This document shows positions 17,543 to 40,800 of a DNA stretch of 40,800 bases, piece by piece. Where the stretch lies: assembly GCA_012516125.1 (NCBI GenBank), contig JAAYXB010000089.1, positions 1 through 40,800 on the forward strand, read 5' to 3'. A program made the translations under genes and the position numbers. Position 1 is the first letter of the stretch, and every line of letters begins with the position of its first letter. The stretch is from Bacillota bacterium. Its GTDB lineage: Bacteria; Bacillota; SHA-98; UBA4971. Under the pieces are notes generated by a model. That model did not search any database, was not told the DNA's origin, and was given only the letters and a program-made list of their open reading frames with translations.

Positions 17543-18222
17543 TGGTCCCTGGGGGACCAACCTCGGGCGAAACCTGGTTGCCAGAGACCCACCCTCGTCG
17601 CGGTTCGGCCGGCAAGACGCCGGGCCCGGTCCCCTGGTAACCAGGATCGACCCAAAGGTGGTGCCCAGGGAGCCAGGTTCCTCCGCCGCCTGGTCCCCAG
17701 GGGACCACCTTCACGGATGCGCGCGCACGGGTGGTCCTCAAGGGACCAGGATTTGCTCGCAGCTGGTCCCTGAGGGACCAACCTCGAGCGAAATCTGGTT
17801 ACCAGAGACCCATCCTCCTGGCGCTCGCTCCACGAGGATGCCGGATCTGGTCCTCTGGTGACCAGGTTACGCGCGAAGATGGTCCCCTGAGGACCAACTT
17901 CGCCCCTCACCTGGTCCCCACGTAACCACCTTGCGAGACATCCAAAAACCCCTGGTCCCTGGGGGACCAGGTTTTGCGTGCGGATGGTCCCCAGGGGATC
18001 AACCTCGCGGGCAACCTGGTCCCTGGTGCACCACCCCCGATGGCTGCCGAGGCGTCCTGGTCACGGGGGGACCAGGACGCGCGCCAAGCTGGTCACGAGA
18101 GGACCATCTTCACGCAGGATCTGGTCCCTGGTGCGCCACCCTGCCCGGTTTTAGCGAGGGAGCGCGGCAGGGGTGGTTTCCGGAGGACCAGATTCCGACC
18201 AGGACTGATCCCGACGCGACCA
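17543..18222. repeat. Phased array of 19 palindromes (17 bp)
   Basis: Nineteen 17-bp dyads, best form TGGTCCCTGGGGGACCA, start at 17543, 17575, 17627, 17659, 17691, 17732, 17764, 17796, 17848, 17880, 17912, 17953, 17985, 18017, 18058, 18090, 18122, 18174 and 18206. The 18 start-to-start distances are 32 (twelve times), 41 (three) or 52 (three), near 3, 4 and 5 turns of B-DNA. The 41 and 52 steps always follow two 32 steps, so sites form triplets. A 221-bp period (32, 52, 32, 32, 41, 32) occurs twice in succession. Spacers of 15 bp are partly conserved and in some triplets are inverted about the middle site. It is non-coding. It is not a CRISPR: spacers are related and repeats vary. I do not recognise the element. 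A degenerate further site may follow at 18238. Confidence 0.9.
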
Positions 18223-18284
18223 GGTCTAGCCCCGACCTCGGTCTCGGGCGATCACCCGCATCCGGGCTGCCGGCCGACTGGATC

Positions 18285-18352
18285 GCTGGCTAGCTGCCAG
18301 ATGAGTGGCTAGCTGGGTAGCTGGGTAGCTGGCCGCCTGGCTAGCTAGCTAT
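18285..18352. repeat. CTAGCTGG/TAGCTGGG short tandem tract
   Basis: About 68 bp of irregular repeats built from GGCTAGCTG and GGGTAGCTG (TAGCTGGG appears twice in tandem), ending in CTAGCTAGCTATAGG. It lies just past the palindrome array. The AGCT core is itself palindromic. No coding role is seen. Confidence 0.6.
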
Positions 18353-18636
18353 AGGTAACCAAGCCCGAAGTTGGACCGCGCATAGCAAAAGGTGTCGCAG
18401 CTTACGAGCGCACGGAGAGACAGCGTGACACTCGTTTGACTTTGAGATTGGCTGTCTGCAAGCAGCCGGATTCTGACACCAGCCGTGCAATCCCCGGCAA
18501 CCCCTCCGAAGAGTAATGAAACCGATCGACGGACCCGGCTTTCCTGCAAGTAACACCTCTGAGACGTCCCGCATAGACTGCTATGGGCACAAGACAGGTT
18601 CACGTCGAACCCCAAATGCCAAGGAGGTAAGAGAAG
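18353..18636. other. Intergenic, no gene seen
   Basis: About 280 bp between the repeat tract and the next gene. Nothing recognisable except the strong ribosome site AAGGAGGT at 18621-18628. Confidence 0.4.
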
Positions 18637-18957
18637 ATGGAAGAGCAAGAAGTGCAGAAGCCTGTGGATACCGGCGTCGTTCCTCACCCATTGCTCGCAT
18701 CGCTCCAACACCTCGGAGATCTCGATTCGCTATGTATCGCCGTTGAGTTCGAATGCGACGACTGCTGCAAGAAAGCCCTGAATGCGAGGATTCTGAGGGT
18801 AATCGGCGAATTCCTGGTCTTAGTAGGCTTCGAAGACGCTTGTATTGTGGTGAAGACGATAAGCGGCGGCCAGTTGGTAGAGAGGGAGCTAGTCAGGGCG
18901 ATTGTCATTCCGCTCGAGAGGGTCTGCAGCATAGAAATTGGCGCTGTGCAGATATGA
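18637..18957 (+). CDS. Small protein of unknown function
   Basis: 106 residues, ATG at 18637 with AAGGAGGT 8 bp upstream, so translation is likely. I do not recognise the family. The N-terminal 30 residues are polar with P-H-P-L-L-A-S-L. There is a C-D-D-C-C cluster near residues 40-44, then an alternating hydrophobic C-terminal half (I-L-R-V-I-G-E-F-L-V-L-V-G-F and then V-I-P-L-E-R-V-C-S-I-E-I) that looks like five or so beta strands, as in a small LSM- or PRC-like barrel. It has no signal peptide or membrane segment. It is transcribed away from the palindrome array and stands alone. The cysteine cluster could bind metal or form disulfides, as in spore-coat proteins; this is speculative. Confidence 0.65.
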   Translation: MEEQEVQKPVDTGVVPHPLLASLQHLGDLDSLCIAVEFECDDCCKKALNARILRVIGEFLVLVGFEDACIVVKTISGGQLVERELVRAIVIPLERVCSIEIGAVQI

Positions 18958-40240: not shown

Positions 40241-40521
40241 CCTAGCTCGCCCTCCTTCGTCCATGTGTGCCTCGTGCCATCGGAGCCCCAGTCCCCGGGG
40301 AGTCGCTACAGAACAGATAGCCAACTCAAGAGCTAAGGGATGACACCGTCATGCCACCGCTTGGCGGCTGAGCGGGGCGCGCACGGCCCGCACATAGTTC
40401 AACTCTGAGCTCGGCCATGGATCACGTACACGCACACCACTCACAACGGCCTCCGGGTTGATGACCGGGCAGCCCTTTGTGCGTCAAGCCTGATCTACGA
40501 GTGCCTGCGTTCGTCCCTGGG

Positions 40522-40792
40522 TGGTCCCTGGGATCCCAGGATCTCCTGCGCGGTTGGTCCCTGAGGGACCAACCCCGAGCGAAATCTGGTCACCAGAGAT
40601 CCACCCTCGTCGCGGTTCAACCGGCAAAACGCTGGACCTGGTCCCCTGGTGACCAGGACCCACGCAAAGATGGTCCCCAGGGAGCCAGGTTCGAGCACGA
40701 CCTGGTCCCCAGGTAGCCACCTTCGCAGGTGCCCACGGGCGGCTGGTCCTCAAGGGACCAGGATTTGCGCGCAGGTGGTCCCTGGGGGACCA
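40522..40792. repeat. Second palindrome array, running off the window
   Basis: Eight 17-bp dyads of the same family start at 40522, 40555, 40587, 40639, 40671, 40703, 40744 and 40776. The steps are 33, 32, 52, 32, 32, 41 and 32, so apart from one extra base they reproduce the 221-bp period of the array at 17543-18222 in the same orientation. The spacers are also recognisably related (for example the CCACCCTCGTCGCGGTTC segment occurs in both). At 40552-40574 a perfect 10-bp stem flanks a TGA loop. The array continues to the last base of the window, so its full size is unknown. Confidence 0.9.
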
Positions 40793-40800
40793 ACCCCGAG

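Follow-up and report, generated by a model that had tools for sequence, protein, structure and literature searches.

What could maintain a row of nineteen short palindromes at only three distances from one another, each close to a whole number of DNA helical turns? This question is raised by an array at positions 17543 to 18222 (+ strand) of the window, which is the whole 40,800-nucleotide stretch of DNA analysed here and forms contig 78 in a 3.24-Mb MAG of 98 contigs (G000). The original prediction described nineteen 17-bp dyads with the core TGGTCC-N5-GGACCA, arranged in triplets with start-to-start steps of 32, 41 or 52 bp. A motif scan recovers the same dyads (general form TGG-N11-CCA), and the re-measured steps match, in the order 32, 52, 32, 32, 41, 32, 32, 52, 32, 32, 41, 32, 32, 41, 32, 32, 52 and 32 bp. 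The proposed core stands as a consensus only, because it is matched exactly in six of the nineteen dyads and with one to four mismatches (among 12 specified positions) in the other 13. Similarly, the rule that a long step follows two 32-bp steps holds overall, as in the complete triplet at 17627 to 17707 (+ strand; dyads at 17627, 17659 and 17691), but the array opens with a doublet because alignment reveals that this copy lacks part of the left end present in others. At the right end, a degenerate twentieth dyad (TCGGTCTCGGGCGATCA; 18238 to 18254, + strand), whose aligned counterpart in other copies is TGGTCCTCGGGGGATCA, lies one 32-bp step further on and completes the final triplet.

The array had been treated as a single locus, and this proved incorrect. 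Searching the genome and its relatives for the motif at 32-, 41- and 52-bp steps revealed copies with the same step pattern genome-wide, amounting to approximately 30 intergenic arrays in G000 and about as many in G004, a sister species of the same genus. Perfect TGGTCCN5GGACCA motifs number 145 in G000, compared with three for a reversed control pattern, well beyond what chance would give, and fall in approximately 35 array fragments, many of which lie at contig ends; our figure of roughly 30 arrays is an estimate made by merging these fragments. Because the genomes compared are MAGs whose contigs often end in arrays, the array counts and some joins are uncertain. G004 carries 146 perfect motifs, and the remaining four genomes in the genus carry zero to two each. 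The window array is 77-91% identical to further copies in the two species, and three copies that are only 77-78% identical align with it across 680 bp with zero gaps.

Inspection of another genome of the class (G001) revealed TGG-N11-CCA dyads with different inner arms but the same steps. A search for three TGG-N11-CCA dyads at exact 32-bp steps, with the reversed pattern as a control, found matches in nine of 17 class genomes (G000, 65; G004, 61; G013, 11; G008, 10; G001, 7; G003, 3; G012, 2; G011, 1; G016, 1), and the control gave zero. Among 398 genomes of the phylum, approximately 380 of which are from outside the class, the sole additional bearer is G389, a member of another family with eight matches. 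A 33-bp version of the triple yields matches in G001, G003, G004, G008 and G011, again with a control count of zero. Arrays are dispersed in G008 and G013 as well. No array was found with these patterns in the close relatives G002 and G005 or in several genomes of the same family, and therefore the lineage can dispense with whatever function the arrays have. The non-bearers in the class are G002, G005-G007, G009, G010, G014 and G015. One array in G000 (L248, at 1070-1770 of G000:C15:41500-44500) is a sequence-divergent set of 20 dyads (TGGTCGC..GCGACCA) with steps of 32, 41 and 52 bp; it is related to an array in G001:C11, and the flanks of the two differ. Plasmids and phages gave no match to the array, and an origin from either was rejected; each of the four pattern matches in IMG/VR is a lone run of three dyads, and most of these runs are exact direct repeats.

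The spacing of the dyads is conserved. Among 1062 dyads in G000 and G004, the steps are 32 bp (567), 33 bp (68), 41 bp (158) and 52 bp (82), with 31, 34, 40 and 51 bp occurring once each and larger values being mostly sums across a missed dyad. In 23 loci that carry sequence-divergent arrays, an unrestricted histogram of distances has peaks at 31 (5), 32 (87), 33 (40), 41 (26), 42 (4), 51 (5) and 52 (14) bp, contains a single value of 47 bp and is otherwise empty below 63 bp; the control is essentially empty. These loci were chosen by the 32-bp triple pattern, a choice that contributes to the 32-bp peak but not to the 41/42- and 51/52-bp peaks or to the empty gaps. A scan of periods from 9 to 12.5 bp gave 10.55 bp as the best fit both in the main family and in the divergent arrays. 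Random triples of lengths match a helical repeat equally well in approximately 0.5% of cases, although many copies have one ancestor in common, which means that the three step classes cannot be counted as independent.

Insertions and deletions are correspondingly scarce. Per 100 substitutions, there are 0.9 indels in the array core and 2.35 in whole arrays, compared with 8.3 in the leaders that precede the arrays, 6.6 in the trailers that follow them and 4.7 in orthologous flanks, which are partly coding. Even in the spacers, letters have been replaced almost without indels. Thus, spacing has been retained while sequence diverged. Because the arrays may share one ancestor, the data show that spacing was kept as letters changed and not that it arose repeatedly. 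These observations uphold the earlier proposals of helical phasing and of selection on spacing, since distances are confined to 31-33, 41-42 and 51-52 bp, and no freely varying steps, which would have spoken against both, were found across the copies and relatives examined.

Conservation within the array is concentrated in the half-sites. In 27 full copies, the mean pairwise difference is 0.075 for dyad arms, 0.204 for the N5 centres and 0.22 for spacers, making spacers approximately three times more variable than arms. The averaged divergent dyad has a symmetric logo that extends approximately 4 bp past TGG and CCA (roughly AAGS-TGGTCG-NNWNN-CGACCA-SCTT), in which TGG and CCA themselves are fixed by the search pattern. 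Half-sites fit the shared consensus rather than their own partners, and complementarity within dyads is at background. This pattern is expected if a protein recognizes each half-site independently, and it is not expected of a stem.

We therefore consider it probable that the dispersed intergenic array is a phased platform on which a dimeric DNA-binding protein, encoded elsewhere in the genome, docks. The geometry of the array, its conservation under divergence, the joint constraint on half-sites and spacing and the lack of covarying pairs are all directly apparent in the genomes; that a protein binds the dyads, and that it is a dimer, we infer from them. Each 17-bp dyad, with its two inverted TGG half-sites (AAGS-TGGTCG-N5-CGACCA-SCTT), would hold one dimer, and steps of three, four and five helical turns would place all dimers on one face of the DNA. 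Triplets of such dimers might then bind cooperatively and build a regular nucleoprotein body. In the lineage of the window, a non-autonomous element bounded by terminal inverted repeats would have dispersed the arrays, and recombination between copies would have kept them alike. With approximately 30 sites per genome, a role in chromosome organisation or anchoring seems more plausible than regulation of single genes, although this assignment is less certain than binding itself.

The carrier element is the basis for the most serious alternative, in which the array is the part of a non-autonomous mobile element that binds a transposase or accessory protein, with phased sites that assemble a transposition complex and serve no host function. 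In both G000 and G004, the array copies are bounded by a common leader and a common trailer, each roughly 170-500 bp long, and many have terminal inverted repeats, with TATAGATAGCCAACTCA on the left and its complement TTGAGGTTGGCTATCTATA on the right. The whole element, with ends TATAGATAGCCAAC..TCAA and the array inside, measures 1.07-1.69 kb. With these terminal inverted repeats, the element is MITE-like and probably non-autonomous. At one locus (L099), it is missing from G001, G003 and G005, with 1.67 kb corresponding to 24 bp in G001, and at another (L107), a gap of about 100-200 bp in G002 and G005 occurs where the element spans approximately 1.37 kb. Absence at the same loci in relatives means that the element was inserted in this lineage or lost elsewhere, and the dispersal of copies in G008 and G013 is likewise expected of a mobile element. 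However, G008 and the G000:C15/G001:C11 pair have only the array as their shared unit and lack these ends, no clear target-site duplication was evident at two loci where an insertion faces a 24-bp or approximately 100-bp gap, and no autonomous partner or transposase was identified at the loci examined, where solo ends without arrays exist. Furthermore, neither G000 nor G004 has a Y1 transposase, and array positions are mostly common to the two species, leaving little trace of recent hopping. We regard an array that serves transposition alone as unlikely.

Parts of the carrier element are also recognizable in the window by comparison of copies. A trailer remnant (18255 to 18460, + strand) consists of a simple TGGC/TAGC repeat followed by a degenerate right terminal repeat (TTTGAGATTGGCTGTCTGCA) that ends near 18460; the tetranucleotide-like repeat, at 18280-18350, differs in length among copies. 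The first array of the window has no ortholog among the arrays of G004, which matches only the right flank at this locus, and G002 has both flanking genes there without an array. A second copy begins with a leader (40312 to 40496, + strand) that starts with the left terminal repeat AACAGATAGCCAACTCAAGAG and whose family was recovered by search. It is followed by an array (40497 to 40800, + strand) in which the motif scan found eight dyads (40522-40792; starts at 40522, 40555, 40587, 40639, 40671, 40703, 40744 and 40776) and which continues past the contig end; the left flank shows synteny with a G004 locus that also bears an array. Two other features lie nearby. Positions 18458-18515 are the end of a dispersed element of approximately 120-200 bp with hairpin-like ends (GGTTGCCGGTGTTGCAC...CAATCACCGGCAACC), which occurs in many places across genomes of the genus and often adjoins the dyad array without being related to it. 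A small ORF of 106 amino acids (18637-18957) has no Pfam match, and its DNA is 72-94% conserved in G002, G003, G004 and G005, beside changing neighbours.

A second alternative is that the array is a multi-dimer operator on which a repressor or activator controls neighbouring genes. All array copies are intergenic, and 37 of 54 left-hand genes are directed away from the array, a count that is inflated by orthologous sites and reflects a one-sided bias. However, in the sampled genomes the arrays are flanked by housekeeping genes that are unrelated to one another, no gene family is common to the neighbours of ten arrays, and twenty phased dimers at approximately 30 unrelated loci far exceed what an operator needs. 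Control of adjacent genes is thus a decidedly improbable purpose. No par genes were found beside the arrays examined. A coding role was rejected, as the arrays sit between genes and unit lengths of 32, 41 and 52 bp hold no reading frame.

A third possibility is a passive satellite or selfish repeat that is regular only through recent duplication and gene conversion. Most array sites are common to G000 and G004, with flanks that are 87-97% identical, and yet the arrays at these shared sites are often just 79-88% identical, below the figure for the closest paralogue in their own genome. The copies therefore evolve in concert, most simply through recombination with one another, and chimeric MAG assembly could contribute to the pattern. 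Together with dispersed, MITE-like carriage, this means that copies within a genome are alike in large part because of mobility and homogenisation. However, concerted evolution within a genome cannot by itself keep step lengths the same in families that can no longer be aligned, and it leaves unexplained why arms are three times more conserved than spacers. We consider a purely passive repeat very improbable. In a separate case, two opposite-facing arrays flank a segment of approximately 8 kb (L100, G000:C89:1500-21000, compared with L135, L153 and L156 of G004), at whose joins the two species differ in the manner of an inversion, through either recombination or MAG mis-assembly.

Least credible of all is a transcribed structured RNA or DNA cruciform array in which dyads or pairs of dyads fold as hairpins, since, although perfect palindromes could fold and some half-sites in G003 and G008 appear by eye to have a better pairing partner in the following dyad than within their own, covariation is lacking both within dyads (83.8% for real partners, 83.6% for shuffled) and across the 15-nt spacers (87.7% versus 87.8%) and therefore disfavours either structure, G-T and A-C mismatches are about equal in number and thus reveal no wobble bias, an Rfam scan of the window found only tRNA and nothing at the array, and folding offers no reason for a 10.5-bp period.

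The docking platform for a dimeric protein, which we continue to favour, points to an undescribed DNA-protein scaffold in one poorly known lineage. A broader formulation, which we advance tentatively as a serious possibility, is that TGG-N11-CCA dimer sites in triplets of three-, four- and five-turn steps define an undescribed class of chromosomal scaffold that is old in one class and one further family. Its geometry would be inherited while the site sequence drifts with the putative partner protein, and each chromosome would carry approximately 30 nucleoprotein bodies. If so, bacterial DNA would have a new mode of carrying positional information, in a non-coding element preserved through its helical spacing and not its sequence, and cooperative, face-specific protein assembly is predicted at approximately 30 chromosomal loci, possibly by a new nucleoid-organising factor.

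No description of such arrays was found in the open-access literature, and no described family among those tested fits. Plasmid centromeres, chromosomal parS and the ram sites of RacA are clustered sites for a dimeric protein, with helical phasing important in some, but they occupy one or a few loci or have a fixed site sequence. The present arrays resemble them in phasing and in the clustering of sites for a (here putative) dimeric protein; unlike them, they number approximately 30 per genome, and their site sequence changes by lineage whereas their spacing does not. REPs are short single or paired palindromes tied to RAYT transposases, and REP/BIME and REPIN systems with RAYT similarly place many intergenic palindromes in a genome, whereas each array holds approximately 20 dyads in fixed triplets. 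A REP/RAYT identity was rejected because the main array bearers are without a Y1 transposase (RAYT, PF01797), which gave no match in G000, G004, G001, G008, G012, G013 or G016 and is present in only four of 17 class genomes. CRISPR loci also combine regular short repeats with spacers, but their repeats are identical and their spacers unique, whereas array repeats vary by position, spacers have three lengths and are common to all copies, and no cas context was seen. As for structured RNA families, no described member occurs at the array and there are no covarying stems.

Rows of dyads resembling TGGTCC-N5-GGACCA also occur at 22-bp steps in MAGs of uncultured Bacteroides (L051, L054, L055, L063 and L066), where one GGTCC/GGACC half-site per 11 bp marks a different element with a similar logic. 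In Hymenobacter guriensis (L065), dyads of the TGGTCCTCCGAGGACCA type lie approximately 42 bp apart around 283-341.

The nearest published analogue among those checked is the BOX element of Streptococcus pneumoniae, which is dispersed, intergenic and MITE-like and has a tandem internal module between its two end modules (PMC3049150). The arrays share all of these features. However, the internal boxB module varies in number and is predicted to form RNA stems (PMC3049150), and whereas a BOX-type internal module is conserved in sequence, the dyads of the arrays differ by position and the order of their 41- and 52-bp steps is largely kept. The conserved trait of the arrays is instead the three-, four- and five-turn spacing of protein-type dyads without covariation, such that, across species, it is geometry and not sequence that has been conserved.
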